DNA from: Thioclava atlantica
GTDB taxonomy: Bacteria; Pseudomonadota; Alphaproteobacteria; Rhodobacterales; Rhodobacteraceae
DNA length: 64,000 nucleotides
Assembly: GCF_000737065.1 (NCBI RefSeq)
Contig: NZ_AQRC01000005.1
Span: 124,001-188,000 of the forward strand
Direction of reading: 5' to 3'
The translations under genes were made by a program, and so were the position numbers. Below the pieces are notes generated by a model. It saw only the letters and a program-made list of their open reading frames with translations. It was not told the origin of the DNA and made no database searches. This document shows, in pieces, positions 9,771-49,471 of this stretch. How positions within the stretch are numbered: position 1 is the stretch's first letter; the number at the start of each line of letters is the position of its first letter.

Positions 9771-9817
9771 GGGTTGCCGATGCGCACGCACCGTTCAGCT
9801 TTCATTGAGGTCCCCAG

Positions 9818-10102
9818 ATGACCGCGCTCGATCTGCCGGAGCGGATCGATCTGGCAGCCGTGGGCGCGTTGCAGGACGCACTTTCCCAGGCGCTGGCGGA
9901 GGGCGATCTCACACTCGATGCGTCGCAGGTGTCGCATCTGGGGGCGCTTGGCCTGCAGCTTCTCGTCTCCGCCGCGAAGACCGCGCGCGCACAGGACCGC
10001 AAATTCAGCATCACCCCCCGCTCCGAGGCATTCGACGAGGCGGTCTCGCGCCTCGGCGCGTCCCTCGACGATCTCGAACACCGCGAGGAAACAACCGCAT
10101 GA
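9818..10102 (+). CDS. STAS-domain protein of the chemotaxis operon (CheS-like)
   Basis: A 94-residue single STAS domain, with the helix-start motif SHLGALGLQLL near residues 43-53 where anti-sigma antagonists carry a phosphorylatable Ser; here the usual DSSG-type sequence is SHLGA. It is the first gene of the che operon and its last bases overlap the cheY start (ATGA). In Sinorhizobium meliloti a small protein of about this size encoded just before cheY1 (CheS) binds CheA and speeds CheY1 dephosphorylation. Position and size match; the functional equivalence is inference. An anti-sigma antagonist role is the main alternative. Confidence 0.85.
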   Translation: MTALDLPERIDLAAVGALQDALSQALAEGDLTLDASQVSHLGALGLQLLVSAAKTARAQDRKFSITPRSEAFDEAVSRLGASLDDLEHREETTA

Positions 10103-10458
10103 AGGTTCTTGCAGTCGATGACAGCCGAACGATCCGCGACATGCTGCGGCTCACCCTCAGCGGTGCGGGGATCGAGATCTACCTGGCCGAGGATGGTCAG
10201 CACGGGCTCGAGGTGCTCGAGGGAATCGCACCCGACGCGATCATCTCGGATATCAACATGCCGCGCCTCGACGGCTTCGGCTTCATCTCCGCGGTGCGCG
10301 AACAGGATCGCCATCGTGCGACGCCGATTCTCGTCCTCACCACCGAATCCGCGCCCGAACTCAAGGCGCGGGCCCGCGCCGCCGGGGCGACAGGCTGGAT
10401 CGTGAAGCCCTTCGATCCGGACAAGCTCGTCCGGGCGCTCAACATGGTTGCCGGCTGA
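10099..10458 (+). CDS. cheY: CheY response regulator (first copy)
   Basis: A 119-residue stand-alone receiver domain. The acidic pair Asp7-Asp8, phosphoacceptor Asp51 (IISDINMPRLDG), Thr81 and Lys103 of the KPF motif are all in place. It starts within the stop codon of the STAS gene (ATGA) and lies 11 bp before cheA. It should accept phosphate from CheA and either bind the flagellar motor or act as a phosphate sink; by analogy with Sinorhizobium, the copy next to cheA is the CheY1-type sink, but sequence alone does not settle this. Confidence 0.94.
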   Translation: MKVLAVDDSRTIRDMLRLTLSGAGIEIYLAEDGQHGLEVLEGIAPDAIISDINMPRLDGFGFISAVREQDRHRATPILVLTTESAPELKARARAAGATGWIVKPFDPDKLVRALNMVAG

Positions 10459-28232: not shown

Positions 28233-30707
28233 TCAATTCGCGTTGGCGACGGGCGCGGGCTGAACGTCCTGATCGGGTTCGGCCAACTGGTTCTGCACCG
28301 TCGTCGTCAGCTCGCTCAGCGAGAACGGCTTGGGCAGGAAGACGGAGTTGCGCACCGGCGTGGTGCCGTCCCGGAAAACATCCTCCGCATAGCCCGAGAC
28401 GAAGACGGTCCTGGTCCCCGGTCGGGTCTCGAGCGCCTTGCGCACCCAGCTCGGCCCGTCGAGCCCGGGCATGATCACGTCGGTGACGAAGATATCCACC
28501 ACGAGATCGGGATCTTCGAGCAGCGAGAGCGCCTCCTCCGCGCTGTCGGCCTCGAGCACCGTGAAGCCGCGCAGTTTCAGGGCCCGCGAGGCGAAGGCGC
28601 GGACCGGCGCCTCATCCTCGACGAGAAGCACCGTCGCATCCCCCCAGCGGGTGAGAGCGCCCTTCGCGGGCATGAGGGCGAGCCCCTCCGCCGCCGCGTG
28701 CGGCGGCCTTGCGGACTCCCAGCTTTGATTGACACTCGGCAACATCGGGTCGGGGACCGTCGTCTCCTCTTCGGCAGCGTCGCGCGCGTCGGCAAGCCGC
28801 TCGTGCGCGGGCAGGTAGATCGTGAAGGTCGTTCCCGCGCCGACCGCCGACTCGCAGAAGATGTAGCCACCGGTCTGCTTGACGATCCCGTAGGCGGTCG
28901 ACAGCCCCAGACCCGTCCCCTCCCCGGTGCGTTTGGTCGTGAAGAACGGCTCGAAGATCTTGCCGATCTTCTCGGGCGCGATGCCCACCCCCTCGTCGGA
29001 AACCCGGATCACGACATATCTGCCGCGCGGAACGGTGGCCCGGTCGAATCTTTGGTCCGCATCGAGATTGGCCATCTCGGTCTCGACCCTGATCTGTCCG
29101 CCCTCGGGCATCGCGTCGCGCGCATTCACCACGAGGTTCATGATCACCTGTTCGAGCTGCCGTTTATCGGCACGGATCGGGGCCAGATCGGACGCATGAG
29201 AAACGGTCAACGCGGTCCGCTCGCCCACGAGGCGATTGAGAAGATGCGTCAGGTCGGCGAGCGTTTCGCGCAGATCGAGGCTCTGCGGCTTGAGCGTCTG
29301 CTTGCGCGAATAGGCCAGAAGCTGACCGACCAGCGCCGCGGCGCGGTTCGCGTTCTGGCTGATCTGGTCGAGATCCGCATAATCGGGATCGTTCTTGTCA
29401 TGGCGCAGCATGAGCAGATCGCAATGGCCCGAGATCGCGGTGAGCAGGTTGTTGAAATCATGCGCCACCCCGCCCGCGAGCTGGCCGATCGCCTACATCT
29501 TCTGGCTCTGTACGAATTGCGCCTCGAGCGTCTTGAGCTGCGTCGCATCGGAGAGCACCGCGAGAAGGCCGGCGCGCCCGTTCTCGAGGATGCGCGAGAG
29601 CGTCACCTGCAGGAATACCTCGCGCTCGCCGTGACGGGCGCGCAAAACCTCGGGCCGTCCATCCGCGCGCCCGGCAAGCGCATCGGTCACCCAATCGGAG
29701 ACCGGCCGGCCGAGCCCTTCGAGCAGATCCGACAGACGTGTCTGGGTCTCGATCCGGCCGAGCAGCCCGCGGGCCGCGCGGTTGGCGGCCTGCACCTTGC
29801 CATGGGCGCTCAGTTTGATGAGCGCGACCGGGAGCGCCTCGAAATGCGCACCCTCGGCATCACGCCGCTGGCTGGCGATCGGCAGCAGATACACTTCCGA
29901 ACGCCCGCCCGCCCCGTCGATCTGCGCGACGACCGCGGTGACCGGCCCGGCCTCGGCGCGGATCTCGTGCTCTTCGCCCGAGCGCAGCGGCAGGTCGGTG
30001 AATATCCGGTCGAGCGACCGCACCCTTTCGCCCACGAGCCGCCGCAGCGCCTCGTTCATGAAAAGGATCGTGCCGCCTTTCGACACCGTGAGCATCGGCA
30101 GGCTGATCGTCTCCGCGCCGCGTCCGCCGATCACACGTTCGGCCATATCCTCGAGCCGCCACAGATAGTCGGACGCGCCGACCCGGTGCACCGAGAGCCG
30201 CAGATGCCCCCGGCGGGTGACGAGATCCTCGCGCGCAGCGCCGGTCGCCACCGCCTTGTTCTTCAGGCGCCGGAGCACGCCCCCCGGATCGGCGAACAGC
30301 TCCGCCAGCGTCCGCGTGAGCGCCTGCCCCCCGCGCGAGCCGAAGCGTTCCAGCGCGGCGCGGTTCTGATACCCGATTTCTCCCTGCTCATTGGTGGCGA
30401 AGCTGGGCGAGGCGTCATTCGCGATGAATTGCGAGAGCGCCTCCTGCAACCGGCCATGGCGCCGCTTCTCGACGAAGAAGGCGCCACGCATCGCGATCGA
30501 GGTGACGAGAAGCGTGCCGGCCACCGAGAACAGCGCCCAGGTCGTCGCGCGATCGGGGATGAGCACGGCCAGACCCGCGGCGAGAACTGCGGCAAGCGCC
30601 AGGTAGACTGCCCCCGGCGCGAGCGACGCCATCGTCTTGGACAGGGGTTGCAGCGCCAGCTCGTTCCGCCCCACGCCAGCCTCCTCGATTGAATCATCTC
30701 GATCCAT
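28233..30707 (-). pseudogene. cckA: Hybrid histidine kinase CckA interrupted by an in-frame TAG
   Basis: One reading frame of 824 codons interrupted by TAG at 29493-29495. Before it: two membrane segments (about residues 31-75) and PAS-like domains (404 residues ending QFVQSQKM). After it, same frame: AIGQLAGGVAHDFNNLL with the phosphorylated His416, ATPase boxes (NLVVNARDAM, SDEGVGI, GEGTGLGLSTAYG) and a receiver with VTDVIMPGLDG. CckA proteins read QKMEAIGQLAGG here, so one base change (GAG to TAG) explains the break. As written the first product lacks the kinase; the second part has no ribosome site, only a GTG at 29468. CckA heads the CckA-ChpT-CtrA phosphorelay controlling motility and gene transfer agents in this order. 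It may be a real mutation, a suppressed codon or a sequencing error. Confidence 0.93.
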
Positions 30708-32175: not shown

Positions 32176-32565
32176 ATGCGTTACTGTCAGTACTGGGTGA
32201 AAGATGAAGAGGGCTCGACCACGATCGAGTCCCTGTTCTGGATTCCGTTCTTCATCTTCCTGATGGCGATCACGGTCGACATCTCGATGATCTTCAACGC
32301 CCATGCGCGTATCCTCGGCATCATCCAGGACGTCGACAGGTCCTATTCAGTCGGGCGCATCGCGGATGACCAATCCGCCGAAGACACGGTGCGCAACATG
32401 CTCTCGCAATATGGCGACTCCCTGTCGGTCACCACCTCGGTCAATAACGGCGTGATCGGAACGACCGTGAAAGTGCCGATGTCGAAACTGGTCGCAACCG
32501 GATTTCTGGGGAATTTCCTCTCGGCCGAACTGACCGTTCAGGATTTCCGCTTCAAGGAGATGTGA
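32176..32565 (+). CDS. TadE-like pilus assembly or secreted membrane protein
   Basis: A 129-residue protein with a single N-terminal membrane helix (about residues 19-40) preceded by EEGSTTIESLFWIPFF, the TadE signature in which an acidic/Gly/Ser stretch precedes a conserved Glu at the fifth position of the helix. Such proteins are pseudopilins processed by TadV in Flp (tight adherence) pilus systems. It lies 1 bp before the TadG-like gene; no tadA, tadB/C or flp is present, so the rest of the apparatus would be elsewhere or these act alone. Confidence 0.82.
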   Translation: MRYCQYWVKDEEGSTTIESLFWIPFFIFLMAITVDISMIFNAHARILGIIQDVDRSYSVGRIADDQSAEDTVRNMLSQYGDSLSVTTSVNNGVIGTTVKVPMSKLVATGFLGNFLSAELTVQDFRFKEM

Positions 32566-32566
32566 G

Positions 32567-33877
32567 ATGAGCCGCCAGGGTCTTCGTCGCTTTGCAGCCT
32601 CGCAAGAAGGCGCGATCACACCGTTCGCGCTCCTCTGGCTCATGCTCACCCTTACCGTGGGCAGTCTCGCCGTCGACGTCTCGAACGCCTATCGCGAACG
32701 CACCCAGATGCAGGACGCGGTCGATGCCACGGCCCTCGGCGCGGTCTATCTCGAATCCGATCCCAAGATCTCCGTCGACGAGGCCCGCCAGAGAGCCGTC
32801 GCGGTTGGACAGGCCAATCTCGGGCAGGACGCAAGTTCGGTGATCACGCCCGAGGATGTCGTCTTCGGTTATTACGACGACACCAACGACACTTTCACCA
32901 CCACCTATACGGCGGGCGAGGCCCTCACCCGCGCCGTGAAGGTGACAGCGCATCGCGACGCCGAGCGGAACAACGAGACCCCCACCTTCATGGCGCGGCT
33001 CGCGGGGAAATTCGGCTGGACGATCCGGACCTCCGCCATCGCCGAGGCCTATCGCCCGAAATGCCTGACCGAGGGGTTGAGCGCGAATGGCGTGATCGAC
33101 CTGCAGTCGGGCAACACGTTCAAATCGGGCTTCTGCCTCTACGCCCGGGCCTATGTCTCGCTCAATCAGAACAATATCTTCGAGCCCGGAAGCATCGTCT
33201 CGATGCCCGATGTGAACAATCTCGACATACCCGCTTCCGGATTTTCCAGGAATGACGGGCTGGCAGAGGCGCTGCGCAACGCCTTCTACGACCTGCGCAT
33301 CCTCAACCAGCTGAGCACGAAGATCGACGATCTGCGTTCCGGCGCCGCGACCATGCCCTCCTATATCACCGACCCATCGATCACCACGATCAGCAAGAGC
33401 AAGATCGACACCAGCGAATTCCAGCCGGGACATGTCTACGAACTGAGCTGCAGCGGGTCGAAGGCGCATATCGACGGAACCACGATCAAGGACGCGGTGA
33501 TCTTCGCGAGCTGTCCGGTGGTGTTCGGCAATGGCGTGGCGCTCGAAAACGTGATCTTCGCGAACACCTCGACCAGCGACCGGAGCTTCTCCGCGCCCAG
33601 CGGCTTGCGCCTTGGCGCGAACGACAGTTGCGCATCGGGAGGCGGGGTGCAGATCCTCACGCTCGGCGGTGTCGGCTCCGCCGCCAAGGTCGAATTCTAC
33701 GGCAGCCAGATCATCGCCGCGCGCGATGTGAACTTCGCCGCACAAGCCAATGGCGTGCAAGGCATTTCCGTCATTGCCGGCGGCAAGATCGACGGCACCT
33801 CGAACTCCACTTTCGGGCATTGCGGCAGCGGCATGGATTCGAGCTTCGACCTGCAGTATTTCCGTCTGCGCGCCTGA
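32567..33877 (+). CDS. TadG-like Flp pilus protein
   Basis: A 436-residue protein with the TadG N-terminus: SQEGAITPFALLWLMLTLTVGSLAVDVSNAYRERTQMQDAVDATALGA, a membrane helix (about residues 18-40) then a helical segment of the putative Flp pilus-assembly domain. The remainder is an extracytoplasmic beta-rich region with four or more cysteines (KCLTEGLS, SGFCLYA, LSCSGSK, FASCPV, DSCASGG, HCGSG) that may form disulfides. It has no von Willebrand A domain, unlike larger TadG proteins. It is coupled to the TadE-like gene; adhesion is the probable role. Confidence 0.82.
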   Translation: MSRQGLRRFAASQEGAITPFALLWLMLTLTVGSLAVDVSNAYRERTQMQDAVDATALGAVYLESDPKISVDEARQRAVAVGQANLGQDASSVITPEDVVFGYYDDTNDTFTTTYTAGEALTRAVKVTAHRDAERNNETPTFMARLAGKFGWTIRTSAIAEAYRPKCLTEGLSANGVIDLQSGNTFKSGFCLYARAYVSLNQNNIFEPGSIVSMPDVNNLDIPASGFSRNDGLAEALRNAFYDLRILNQLSTKIDDLRSGAATMPSYITDPSITTISKSKIDTSEFQPGHVYELSCSGSKAHIDGTTIKDAVIFASCPVVFGNGVALENVIFANTSTSDRSFSAPSGLRLGANDSCASGGGVQILTLGGVGSAAKVEFYGSQIIAARDVNFAAQANGVQGISVIAGGKIDGTSNSTFGHCGSGMDSSFDLQYFRLRA

Positions 33878-40493: not shown

Positions 40494-41638
40494 TGCAGGG
40501 AACTCCCATAGCTGGCGATCAGGGGCGACAGGCGGGCATGCCAGCCATAGCGGGCGACCTCCTCGGCACGGCGGGTCGCGCGACGCACCCCGGTCATCAC
40601 GTCGCGCAGGAGGTTGCGGAACTCTTCGGGCGTATCGGCAACATAGACGCCCTCCATCGCCTCGGCCTCTTCGAAGCCGCGCAGGGCCGGGCGCATCGCG
40701 ACGACCGGCTTGCGCCACATCAGCGCCTCGGCCGTCTTGAGATTGGTGCCGCCGCCTTCGGTGATCGGCAGGCAGATCGCGCGGGCATGATGCAGGAGGG
40801 CCGCGAGACAGCTCTCCTCCACCACGCCGAGCGGGGCCACGAATTCCGCGTTCATCCGTTCGTAGCGGCGAAACCGGTCATCGGCGGTGATCAGATGGGT
40901 CATGCCGCCCGCGACCGCGAGCTTCGAGCCGGGGGGCAGAAAGCCCGGGATCTCGCCGAAACTCGTCCAATAGCCGGTCGCATTGGGGGGATGGGCCGAG
41001 CCCGCGACGAGCGCATAGGGCCCTGCAAGCGGCGCCGGGTCTTCGCCCGGAGCCGGCGGCCAGCACCCGTTTGGCGCAACCAGCGTGCGGGCCCGTCCGG
41101 CGCCGCGCCACTCGTCGAAGATCGCCGCATCCGCCGCGCTGACCGCGATCACGAGATCGGCGCGCGCGACAAGTTCGCCCTCGAGCGCCCGCGCCGTCGC
41201 CTGCCAGCACGGGTCGATCAACGCGCTTTCGACATTATGGGCCGAATAGACGATCCGCGCGCGCGACAGGACCGGATCGGAGGCCAGCGCCCTGGCGAAG
41301 AGCGGATAGAGCCAAGGCTGCTCGAACTGCACCACATCAGGCGCGTAGCGGCGCAGATCGTCGAGCAGGTGCCGGGCCAGCGGATGCCCCTCGATCAGTT
41401 GTGCCAGATGCAGATCCTCGCGCCGGCGCAGGTCATGGAGCCGGTCGAGAAGGGGCTCGGGCACCGCGGTCAGACGCTCGTCCGGCGAGCCGTCGGGATA
41501 GCCCCGCGTCGAATAGACCGGCACGTATCGAAACGCGTGCCCCGCCCGGCGCGCCTCGGCCGCGATCGCCGCGACACGGCGCTGACCGCCATGCAGCGGG
41601 CGGTGGATCGGGTAATGACCGAAAGCGGCGATCTTCAT
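40490..41638 (-). CDS. Glycosyltransferase, GT4-like fold
   Basis: A 382-residue GT-B glycosyltransferase. The N-terminus MKIAAFGHYPIHRPLHGGQRRVAAIAAEARRAGH has the donor-independent first Rossmann domain, and EGGGTNLKTAEALMWRKPVVAM (near residue 295) matches the family GT4 EX7E-type donor site (E-GGTNLKTAE). It overlaps both neighbours by 4 bp, upstream with another glycosyltransferase and downstream with a sulfotransferase, so the three form one unit. Substrate unknown; a sulfated exopolysaccharide or glycolipid is a reasonable inference. Confidence 0.88.
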   Translation of the reverse strand: MKIAAFGHYPIHRPLHGGQRRVAAIAAEARRAGHAFRYVPVYSTRGYPDGSPDERLTAVPEPLLDRLHDLRRREDLHLAQLIEGHPLARHLLDDLRRYAPDVVQFEQPWLYPLFARALASDPVLSRARIVYSAHNVESALIDPCWQATARALEGELVARADLVIAVSAADAAIFDEWRGAGRARTLVAPNGCWPPAPGEDPAPLAGPYALVAGSAHPPNATGYWTSFGEIPGFLPPGSKLAVAGGMTHLITADDRFRRYERMNAEFVAPLGVVEESCLAALLHHARAICLPITEGGGTNLKTAEALMWRKPVVAMRPALRGFEEAEAMEGVYVADTPEEFRNLLRDVMTGVRRATRRAEEVARYGWHARLSPLIASYGSSLQ

Positions 41639-43185
41639 GCGGCATCCTCCTGAACGGACGGTTGAGCGGACTCCGGAACGGGCGCGGCGCGCGCTGCTCC
41701 GATCGCCGCCTCGAGATCGGCCCCAAGCTCCTCGCGGAATGTCGCCCAATTGCGCCCCTCGAACCGGGCCGCGCGGGCACAGGCGGCGCCATAGGCGGCC
41801 TCGTCGCTCATCAGGGCGTGACAGCGCTCGAGCCAGCGCTCTCCCTCGAACAGCCCGATCGGTTCGGCCGCCCCTGCCCCCGCCTCGATCAGCGCCGGCG
41901 CATCCGACGTCAGGCAGGGCTTGCCATGGCCGAGCGCCTCGACGACCGGCAGCCCCCAGCCTTCGTAATGCGAGGCATAGATGGAGAACCGGCACGCGCG
42001 GTATAGCTCCTCGAGTTCGTCATCCTCGACATCGGGCAGGATACGGATCGCCTCATGCGGAAGCCCCGCATCGTTGCGCAACATCTCGAGGAGCGGCGCG
42101 ATCGACCAGCCGGGCTGGCCCACCCAGACCAGCGGCATCACCTGGCCGGGATGGCGATGGTGCAACTCGCGCCAGAGCCGGTAGACGAAATCGTAATTCT
42201 TGCGCGGCTCCTGGGTGCCGACCATCAGCACGAACCGGCCCGGCACGAGGTTCCGGCGCGCGAAGATGCCCTGGCGCATCGCCGGATCGGCACGTCCCCG
42301 CGCCGCATCGGCGCCAAGCGGCACCGGCAGTACCTGCGCGGGATCGAGCGGCGGATAGCCGTGACGCGCGGCATGAGCGAGCAGATCGCGGCGCGTCGTC
42401 TCGGAATTCGTCCAGATCCGGTCGACGCCCCAGAGCATCCAGTGCAGCGCTGCCGGGTAGGTCGTGCGGGTCGTGGGCTCGGCCAGATGCCCCCAGAGGA
42501 TCGGGATCAGATCGTGGATATAGTAATGCAGGCGCCAGCCATGCGCGCCCCGCATGCGATGTGCCAACCGGTAGCGATCATCCGACCAGAACCCGCCCGC
42601 CGAGACATAATGCGCGACCCGGTCAGGCTCGATCCGGTTCTCCGGCGTGCAGATCTCGTCATGGACGGTTCGGAGCAGCCCGAAATGCGCCTTGTGATTG
42701 AGCGCGTCGAGCCCCTGGATGGACGCGGCGATCCGAGGGAAGACCCGTTCGAGCCGGACCAGCGCGCGCCGCATCATCGCATATTCCGCAACCGAGAGCC
42801 GCAACAGCTCCGTCCCGATCACGGCCTCGCGGCGCGACCGCGCCTCCTCCCCGCGGACCGCGCGACCCCGCCCGCGGGCGCATACACGCAAAACGAACCG
42901 CCCGACCCGCATCCAGGACCGCCAGCGGCTGCGCGCGGTGCAGGCCCGCTCCGGGACAACCGGCTGCCGGCCGTTGCGGAATATCACCTCTTCGAACAGC
43001 GCCTCGGGAATCCGATAGAAACCATCGCGCGCCTCTTCATAGATCACCGGGCAGAGCCGCGCCCCGAACCGGTCCGCGAGCGCACGATAGACCTCGTGCT
43101 CCACCCTCAGGATGCCCATCGGTTTCCAGTGGCGGAACTGGTAACTCGTCGAGAGGTCGATCAGGATCGTCTTGTCCATCATCAT
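41635..43185 (-). CDS. Glycosyltransferase family 4 protein with N-terminal extension
   Basis: A 516-residue protein. The C-terminal half is a GT4 donor domain: RFVLMVGTQEPRKNYDFVYRLW near residue 290 and ASHYEGWGLPVVEALGHGKPCL near residue 400, with the EX7E motif EGWGLPVVE. The N-terminal half (ILIDLSTSYQFRHWKPMGILRVEHEVYRALADR) is like a second Rossmann domain fused to a charged stretch with many Arg residues (about 105-150). Three ATG codons in a row at 43179-43185 are possible starts; I take the first. It is the first gene of the sulfotransferase unit. Confidence 0.85.
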   Translation of the reverse strand: MMMDKTILIDLSTSYQFRHWKPMGILRVEHEVYRALADRFGARLCPVIYEEARDGFYRIPEALFEEVIFRNGRQPVVPERACTARSRWRSWMRVGRFVLRVCARGRGRAVRGEEARSRREAVIGTELLRLSVAEYAMMRRALVRLERVFPRIAASIQGLDALNHKAHFGLLRTVHDEICTPENRIEPDRVAHYVSAGGFWSDDRYRLAHRMRGAHGWRLHYYIHDLIPILWGHLAEPTTRTTYPAALHWMLWGVDRIWTNSETTRRDLLAHAARHGYPPLDPAQVLPVPLGADAARGRADPAMRQGIFARRNLVPGRFVLMVGTQEPRKNYDFVYRLWRELHHRHPGQVMPLVWVGQPGWSIAPLLEMLRNDAGLPHEAIRILPDVEDDELEELYRACRFSIYASHYEGWGLPVVEALGHGKPCLTSDAPALIEAGAGAAEPIGLFEGERWLERCHALMSDEAAYGAACARAARFEGRNWATFREELGADLEAAIGAARAAPVPESAQPSVQEDAA

Positions 43186-43285
43186 CGTGCACCATGTCCC
43201 ACCCCACCACGAGCGAGCACCTTGCAGGCCACCATCCGGTGATAGACCGGCAGAAGTTAACATTTCGCTCCCTGCCGACAGCGGG

Positions 43286-43314
43286 TTGAAGCCGCCCTGC
43301 GCCGGACCTATATT
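43286..43314 (+). promoter_or_regulatory. Sigma-70 promoter of ssrA
   Basis: TTGAAG (43286-43291) and TATATT (43309-43314) are spaced 17 nt. The predicted start near 43321 agrees with the expected 5' end of the acceptor half of a permuted tmRNA. Confidence 0.75.
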
Positions 43315-43320
43315 CAGAGC

Positions 43321-43650
43321 GTTCCCGGCAACGGGGACTATGGGCATAAACGCGCATGGAATAAGCGGATCGGACCCGGGGGCGGTACCCGGCGGCTCCA
43401 CCAAACACCCTCGTTGGGGGAACATGGGGCCGAAATAGGATCGACGAACGTGTAAAGATGTTTGCTTTGTCTCGGTGAGCTACCACCGTCATCGGTGCAA
43501 ATTGTACAGTTGCCAACGACAACCGTGCTCCGGTCGCTCTGGCTGCGTAAGCAGCTCGGGTAACCGAAACCTAACTCCTTGCGCCTAGCAGCGTAAGGCG
43601 GGGCCCGCAGGAGCCTTGCAACAGAATCCTGCACCTTCCCCCCCTTTTTT
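43321..43650 (+). ncRNA. ssrA: tmRNA, permuted two-piece form
   Basis: Circularly permuted alphaproteobacterial tmRNA. The acceptor half comes first and ends in GGCTCCACCA at 43394-43403; a 22-nt intervening piece follows and is removed; the coding half begins GGGGCCGAAATAGGATCGAC at 43426. GGGGCC pairs with GGCTCC to make the acceptor stem. The tag frame starts with the resume codon GCC at 43512 and encodes ANDNRAPVALAA, ending in TAA at 43548-43550. With SmpB it rescues stalled ribosomes and marks the product for ClpXP; the gene for the adaptor SspB is 700 bp downstream. The outer ends (about 43321 and 43640) are approximate. Confidence 0.96.
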
Positions 43651-43651
43651 T
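43599..43651 (+). terminator. Probable ssrA terminator
   Basis: GCAGGA (43607-43612) pairs with TCCTGC (43627-43632), and GGGG before it can pair with the following CCCC run; seven U residues follow at 43645-43651. The stem is interrupted but placed right at the end of the tmRNA coding half. Confidence 0.65.
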
Positions 43652-43752
43652 CGCAATTTGCATCTCGGCTTTCGTTTTTCGAGCGCGCTTAACGAAGTCG
43701 CAAAGCTTCCTCGCCATTCTGCCCGGGTCATGAGGACCGAAGGGAGGATGCG

Positions 43753-44178
43753 ATGTCCCGGCTTTCGATGATCGACGCGTGGCTCAACGATGTGTGGGGA
43801 GAGGGGCGGCTCGACCGGATCGACTCGCTTTTCGCCACCGAGGCGCAGGCCAATGGCCTCATGCCGGGCCTCGAATTGCGGCCCGAGGAATTTCGCGAAC
43901 TGGTGCCGGCGCTGCGCGTGCACCTGCGCGACATCAAGATCACCGTCCTGCGCCATTGCGAGACCGAGGACTGGCTCTGGACGCTGCTGCAGATCGACGG
44001 CACCGCCGCCCAGAGCGGTCATCACGTCTGTTTCAACGGCCAGCTCGCGATGCGCTTCGAGGGCGACAGAATCGCGGAGGCCTACAACAATTACGACGTG
44101 ATCGCCCTGTTCGAGGAGATCGAGCTGCTGCCGCGCGACACGATCGCGCTTTGCCTCTCGGGCGAGTCGCTGGCCTGA
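43753..44178 (+). CDS. SnoaL-like (NTF2-fold) protein
   Basis: A 141-residue protein with the NTF2-like cone fold of SnoaL-type cyclases: MIDAWLNDVWGEGRLDRIDSLFATEAQANGLMPGLELRPEEFRELVPALR is typical of the ester-cyclase-like group, then TVLRHCETEDWLWTLLQIDGT and a C-terminal EAYNNYDVIALFEEIELLP. It has a strong ribosome site (GGGAGG 6 nt before ATG). The reaction, if any, is unknown; this group is often non-catalytic. It lies between ssrA and sspB but no link to their function is evident. Confidence 0.85.
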   Translation: MSRLSMIDAWLNDVWGEGRLDRIDSLFATEAQANGLMPGLELRPEEFRELVPALRVHLRDIKITVLRHCETEDWLWTLLQIDGTAAQSGHHVCFNGQLAMRFEGDRIAEAYNNYDVIALFEEIELLPRDTIALCLSGESLA

Positions 44179-48856: not shown

Positions 48857-49471
48857 ATGCCGAACGACCCTGCCCAGCCCGACCCGCCCGAGGCCGATCT
48901 GGTCGCGCTTCTGGGCTCGCGCCTCTGTCATGACCTGATCAGCCCGATCGGGGCGATCGGCAACGGTCTGGAACTGCTCGCGCTCGCAGGAAGCGTGACG
49001 GGGCCGGAGATGGAACTGATCGCGCAAAGCGTCGCGGCGGCGAATGCGCGGGTGCGGTTCTATCGTCTCGCCTTCGGCCAGGTCGGCGACCAGCAGCGCC
49101 TCGGCGCGTCCCAGATCGCGAAGATCTTGACCGAATTCGGCACGATGGGGCGGATCAACTATGACTGGCAGGTCGAGGGGGAGCGCCCGCGCAGCGAGGT
49201 CAAGCTCGCCTGCCTCGCGATGCTCTGCCTCGAGGCTGCCCTGCCCTTCGGCGGCACCATCGAGGCGCGCGAGACCGGGGGGCACTGGGAGATCGCAACG
49301 CGTTCGGACAAGCTTCGCGCCGAGCCCCGGCTCTTCGCACGGCTCGACGGCACGCCGGGAGACCTCACCCCCGCTCAGGTGCAATTCGCGCTCCTGCCGA
49401 TCGAGGCCGCCCGCCAGCGCCGCCATCTCAGCTGGACCCTTGCCGATCGACAGGCCGCGATCCGGTTCTGA
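48857..49471 (+). CDS. chpT: Histidine phosphotransferase ChpT
   Basis: A 204-residue phosphotransferase. The DHp-like helix carries the phosphorylated His in ALLGSRLCHDLISPIGAIGNGLELL (near residue 25), and the C-terminal half is a degenerate ATPase-like domain without ATP-binding boxes, as in ChpT. It takes phosphate from CckA and passes it to CtrA and CpdR. GGAG lies 6 nt before the ATG. The interrupted cckA gene at 28233-30707 encodes its upstream partner; CtrA is not in this window. Confidence 0.92.
   Translation: MPNDPAQPDPPEADLVALLGSRLCHDLISPIGAIGNGLELLALAGSVTGPEMELIAQSVAAANARVRFYRLAFGQVGDQQRLGASQIAKILTEFGTMGRINYDWQVEGERPRSEVKLACLAMLCLEAALPFGGTIEARETGGHWEIATRSDKLRAEPRLFARLDGTPGDLTPAQVQFALLPIEAARQRRHLSWTLADRQAAIRF

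Follow-up and report, generated by a model that had tools for sequence, protein, structure and literature searches.

A premature amber codon in the only cckA found in Thioclava atlantica: probably a recent loss of function

The only cckA gene that we found in the genome of Thioclava atlantica, which encodes a hybrid histidine kinase, is interrupted by a single in-frame TAG, and we consider that it has probably undergone a recent, ordinary, dispensable and possibly selected loss of function. Taken singly, a lesion of this type is nothing new; the part that deserves follow-up is the repeated breakage of the gene within the genus.

The cckA Frame and Its Internal Stop

The window, that is, the whole stretch of 64,000 nucleotides analyzed, has a G+C content of 65.0%, compared with 66.0% in 127 kb of other loci of the same genome and 65.3 mol% for T. 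atlantica in an excerpt of the literature (PMC5508018). The cckA frame is read from the minus strand (30707 to 28233) and counts 824 codons before its terminal stop, extending from MDRDD through the receiver domain. Its sole internal stop is the TAG at 29493-29495 on the same strand (codon 405), between QSQKM and AIGQLAGGVAHDFNNLL, just ahead of the phospho-acceptor helix, where it divides the sensor from the kinase. Pfam searches with the protein (X at codon 405) returned PAS, followed by HisKA, HATPase_c, and Response_reg, and hydrophobic stretches were recognized by eye at the N-terminus. The preliminary description of this DNA, in which a full-length frame was reported, with no strand named, to be broken by one TAG at this place, is thus borne out by the reading of the frame and by Pfam domains on both sides of the stop. 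The features are:

28233..30707, minus strand: cckA, hybrid histidine kinase gene with one in-frame TAG (full-length frame, own-genome search)
29493..29495, minus strand: in-frame TAG, codon 405, a Gln codon in the relatives examined (codon comparison, 96 other loci)
29496..30707, minus strand: N-terminal 404 codons, the membrane/PAS sensor half without kinase (PAS-type matches only; membrane segments by eye)
29532..29843, minus strand: PAS_4 domain, residues 289-392 (Pfam)
29298..29486, minus strand: HisKA (DHp), residues 408-470, starting right past the TAG, with the phospho-acceptor His416 in AHDFNN (Pfam, alignment)
28806..29168, minus strand: HATPase_c catalytic domain, residues 514-634, intact (Pfam, alignment)
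28296..28631, minus strand: receiver domain, residues 693-804, intact (Pfam)
28233..29468, minus strand: 411-codon frame past the stop, with GTG 29468-29466 as the earliest possible restart (hypothetical; frame reading)

The best NCBIfam matches of the protein, NF046020 (519.9 bits) and NF046026 (405.8 bits), both under the cut-off of 1000, are CckA models that, by their names, were built for Brucella and Caulobacter relatives. We take the gene to be cckA from the best of these matches, its domain order, its place, and the usage for this family in Rhodobacterales. Like CckA of Rhodobacterales, it displays the order PAS, HisKA, HATPase, receiver and the HisKA-proximal motif FVQSQKM-x-AIGQLAGG-V/I-AHDFNN, and ChpT and CtrA are present alongside it; unlike them, the Thioclava allele has an amber at codon 405, and sensor and kinase are not expected as one chain.

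An ortholog was identified in all 15 other Thioclava genomes, the closest to the CckA protein query being those of T. pacifica DSM 10166 (80% identity) and T. marina 11.10-0-13 (79%). The stretches around these orthologs contain a match to the recA of the window in 14 of 15 genomes and to its RsmB-like neighbor in 15 of 15. A second cckA was not found in the own genome, where the next match by E-value is just 30% identical and partial, over the kinase part, which gives no support to a second copy covering the loss. As a side observation, two adjacent conserved plus-strand genes at 32176-33877, without an NCBIfam match, recur in the stretches of 7 among the 15 other Thioclava genomes.

When syntenic ORFs of T. 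pacifica and T. marina were aligned by tblastn to window positions 1 to ~46,300 (41 regions with 14,651 aligned residues and 39 regions with 14,641, respectively), the cckA TAG was the only internal stop found in an unambiguous gene. The remaining listed stops mostly fall in alignment columns 1 to 26, where over-long queries reach upstream of the point at which the window genes begin, and one further source is a T. pacifica ORF of 125 codons (43455-43853) that is unsupported by T. marina. Separately, a T. pacifica ORF matches window 41638-43420 in two frames (residues 3-63 and 75-581), the T. marina match there being single-frame.

The Ancestral Codon and the Age of the Lesion

The codon at the stop site was compared in 97 loci, the own locus and 96 others among the matches listed (about 89 of the 96 are distinct after removal of 7 recognized duplicates), and the flanking motif was recovered in every one of them. 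Among these listed matches, the other loci have CAG (91/96) or CAA (5/96), and TAG is confined to the own locus. Because Gln is thus encoded in 96/96 of the other loci, the lesion, as read from the codons of relatives, is a C-to-T transition that turned Gln codon 405 into an amber. The preliminary description had assumed a Glu codon (GAG) altered by a G-to-T change, a route that the uniform presence of Gln refutes; a sequencing error would accordingly conceal CAG. It had also suggested looking for the same TAG in sister genomes, and the stop is carried by 0/96 other loci. All close relatives examined therefore lack the stop, which is one base off their codon, as in a nonsense pseudogene.

Conservation was assessed in an alignment of 94 sequences, comprising the own CckA, those of the 15 other Thioclava genomes, and 78 further loci from the best 80 listed (four of these being duplicates of Thioclava genomes). 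Between residues 90 and 808, the own protein shows no departure in 169 near-invariant columns (at most one deviant sequence) and two in the 221 columns with at least 95% conservation, counts that are typical of intact copies. The near-invariant columns thus speak against decay of the kinase half. As these residues are unchanged, either the break occurred recently or the cell still produces the protein, and the preliminary description, which had argued just this from the undecayed appearance of the gene, was right on this point. Pairwise dN/dS values between the own cckA and its two nearest relatives range from 0.09 to 0.19 across the two halves.

In relative-rate tests, the own branch accumulated 21 to 23 changes in the kinase half versus 6 to 7 with L012, L013, and L014 as outgroups (22 vs. 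6 amino-acid changes with L013, p 0.004). With L018 as outgroup, the counts are 17 versus 11 for T. pacifica (p 0.34) and 14 versus 11 for T. marina. The N-terminal half evolves evenly (20 to 22 vs. 18 to 20). The extra changes of the kinase half could reflect a relaxed constraint that predates the stop, a signal that depends on the outgroup, with L013 and L018 in disagreement.

The Rest of the Relay and the Flagellins

The phosphotransferase partner of CckA is encoded in the window:

48857..49471, plus strand: chpT, intact (PF10090, 72.8 bits; conserved SRLCHDLISPIGAIGNG segment)

Its PF10090 score is the lowest among the 16 best per-genome scores, and its only NCBIfam matches are ChpT models, under their cut-offs. 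A CtrA carrying LTGKEYQMLELL, a signature of this protein, is intact and encoded outside the window. Three stop-free flagellin-domain frames also occur in the own genome, and two of them form a pair of 279 and 357 residues (G000:C4:196451-200904). A pair of nearly equal sizes is found in G003, G008, G010, G012, and G014. T. pacifica and T. marina have one large flagellin frame only and no such pair, and the T. pacifica type strain is nevertheless listed as motile in an excerpt of PMC5508018.

CckA is essential in Caulobacter. The CckA-ChpT-CtrA relay is, according to excerpts of the respective studies, non-essential and in control of motility and flagellar genes in Ruegeria KLH11 (PMC3692519) and in Phaeobacter inhibens (PMC12363192), and non-essential and in control of flagellar genes in Dinoroseobacter shibae (PMC4046655), in which the cckA deletion grew at 0.25 per hour and the wild type at 0.16 (PMC4046655). 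The constructed nulls of these three species and the Thioclava allele are alike in that the same kinase is lost and viability is kept; the former are laboratory-made, whereas the latter sits in a public genome. Among the literature matches listed, we found nothing on point about spontaneous or evolved loss of cckA: the excerpts at hand concern gain-of-function cckA mutants of Cereibacter, the opposite of a loss (PMC9430884), and Phaeobacter variants affected in other genes (PMC6224355).

Other cckA Lesions in Thioclava

Two further Thioclava genomes harbor a broken cckA. In G014 (L017; L286), the receiver-domain part of the gene is frameshifted by two additional bases within a CG-rich tract; in G015, a metagenome bin (L021 / L043, contig JAFGWK010000194.1), GAA is changed to TAA near codon 363. 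The three cases are alike in gene, in genus, and in having one disabling change apiece, and the two latter lesions lie at other sites than the TAG described here. That these two genomes carry different lesions of the same gene strengthens the case for a real loss. Broken copies thus occur in 3/16 Thioclava genomes versus 0/74 further loci from the best 80 listed (Fisher p 0.005, post hoc), a comparison in which the 74 loci, none recognized as one of the 16 genomes, belong mostly to other genera, with some bins of unstated genus, and in which broken copies may be too few because of the selection of the best 80.

As a control, we considered the eight neighboring window genes for which seven or more of the 15 other genomes have a homolog, and 0/91 gene-genome pairs were flagged as broken. 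Because these genes include the housekeeping genes recA, alaS, and cysS, the control speaks to the dispensability of cckA and not to selection. Besides the two cckA rows, eight flagged rows in five other genes were left out of the control. The flagged breaks in four of these five genes were rejected, as the stops sit in 5-prime extensions of over-long window ORFs. At window 9805-10458, the T. pacifica homolog seems to be split by a frameshift into two overlapping frames, maybe truly so, and the T. marina homolog is whole.

Alternative Explanations

The preliminary description had rightly left three options, namely a real loss, read-through, or an error, and our data favor the first of them and give no support to the second. 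The main rival of a real loss, which we nonetheless regard as unlikely, is a sequence or assembly error, in which case the strain would have an intact CAG and the TAG would be a wrong base. The genome is indeed a draft of 46 contigs, and the rest of cckA is under normal constraint. On the other hand, an assembled consensus rarely contains a single-base substitution error that puts a stop into a given gene, although this depends on the platform, and the TAG stands alone as an internal stop of an unambiguous gene in the 46 kb compared. The unrelated lesions of two other Thioclava genomes also argue against an error, though these may be errors too, one of them coming from a metagenome bin. A further point concerns phenotype: the T. 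atlantica type strain is reported as motile in an excerpt of PMC5508018, which favors an error and would be hard to square with a dead cckA. The same excerpt (PMC5508018) lists as non-motile two species in which cckA is intact, T. marina and T. dalianensis (G002), so that reported motility is no readout of this gene.

Decoding of the TAG by a suppressor tRNA or by leaky termination, with some full-length kinase being made, would agree with the intact downstream frame and the undecayed near-invariant residues, which a recent mutation explains equally well, but we judge it highly improbable. None of the 42 tRNAs found (41 by Rfam search plus a separately located tRNA-Tyr; anticodons from ARAGORN) has a CUA anticodon, in a search known to miss some tRNAs. 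The list is incomplete, as Ile-GAT and Ala-TGC tRNAs were seen neither in the own genome nor in a single-contig relative, and the Rfam genome search missed tRNA-Tyr, which adjoins a SpoU/TrmH-type methylase gene (L202, own contig C1 near 235299). The anticodon of this tRNA-Tyr is the normal GTA, which speaks against a suppressor derived from it. Searches with three anticodon-arm patterns and a gapped one yielded no tRNA, five of the matched loci having been scanned, and a "tRNA-Pyl (cta)" with a 1225-base intron, predicted by relaxed ARAGORN at a second SpoU locus, was dismissed as noise. Moreover, 34 conserved window genes end in TGA (29), TAA (3), or TAG (2); a code in which TAG is reassigned is not supported, given these two ordinary terminators together with the lack of other internal stops in unambiguous genes of the compared 46 kb. 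The RNA following the cckA stop folds no better than shuffled sequences (z 0.18), and, among the matches listed, none of the 96 other loci shares the stop, although relatives of a read-through gene would be expected to keep it. Even less credit can be given to a functional split, in which a sensor of 404 residues would act together with a soluble kinase-receiver whose translation restarts at GTG 29468. The 411-codon frame, with HATPase, receiver, and most of HisKA, does begin 24 bases past the stop, but a restart at this GTG, two residues ahead of the phospho-acceptor His, would remove the beginning of the DHp helix, no Shine-Dalgarno sequence is evident by eye, and the arrangement is found in 0/96 other loci among the matches listed. 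Finally, Thioclava populations might repeatedly turn cckA off under selection, by growing faster or by stopping costly CtrA outputs, and sometimes restore it. Such switching, which we hold to be very unlikely, would fit with three different lesions in 3/16 genomes, one of them a gain of two bases in a CG tract, and with the faster growth of the D. shibae deletion; yet each lesion is found in a single genome, and a point nonsense mutation is no switch.

Course and Meaning of the Probable Loss

The reading that we prefer remains a recent loss of function. In the only cckA found, a C-to-T change in Gln codon 405 would recently have produced an amber, at which translation would halt just ahead of the phospho-acceptor helix, leaving, as predicted from the domain layout, a PAS sensor half without kinase. 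By analogy with Rhodobacterales mutants, the intact ChpT and CtrA would presumably be left without CckA-made phosphate, and CtrA-dependent flagellar genes would be off; the consequences of the stop for motility and for gene transfer agents are in this way what we infer. The loss would be tolerated because CckA is non-essential in the Rhodobacterales studied, and it may even have been favored in culture, given the growth advantage of the D. shibae deletion, from which selection in Thioclava is suggested by analogy.

A broader proposal, which we offer as speculation and deem rather unlikely, is that Thioclava repeatedly inactivates CckA, by amber, ochre, or CG-tract frameshift, as cells without CckA grow faster and stop the costly output of flagella and gene transfer agents, with a standing mix of relay-on and relay-off genotypes in public genomes and in wild populations.

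If confirmed, the allele described here would be a non-engineered null lying within an otherwise intact relay and affecting a kinase that Caulobacter cannot do without but that is dispensable in the Rhodobacterales studied. Draft or type-strain genomes may harbor such recent regulatory losses, which would make predictions of phenotype misleading. Recurrence in 3/16 genomes, if confirmed, would offer a simple comparative test of whether loss of the CtrA relay is favored, in culture or in nature.
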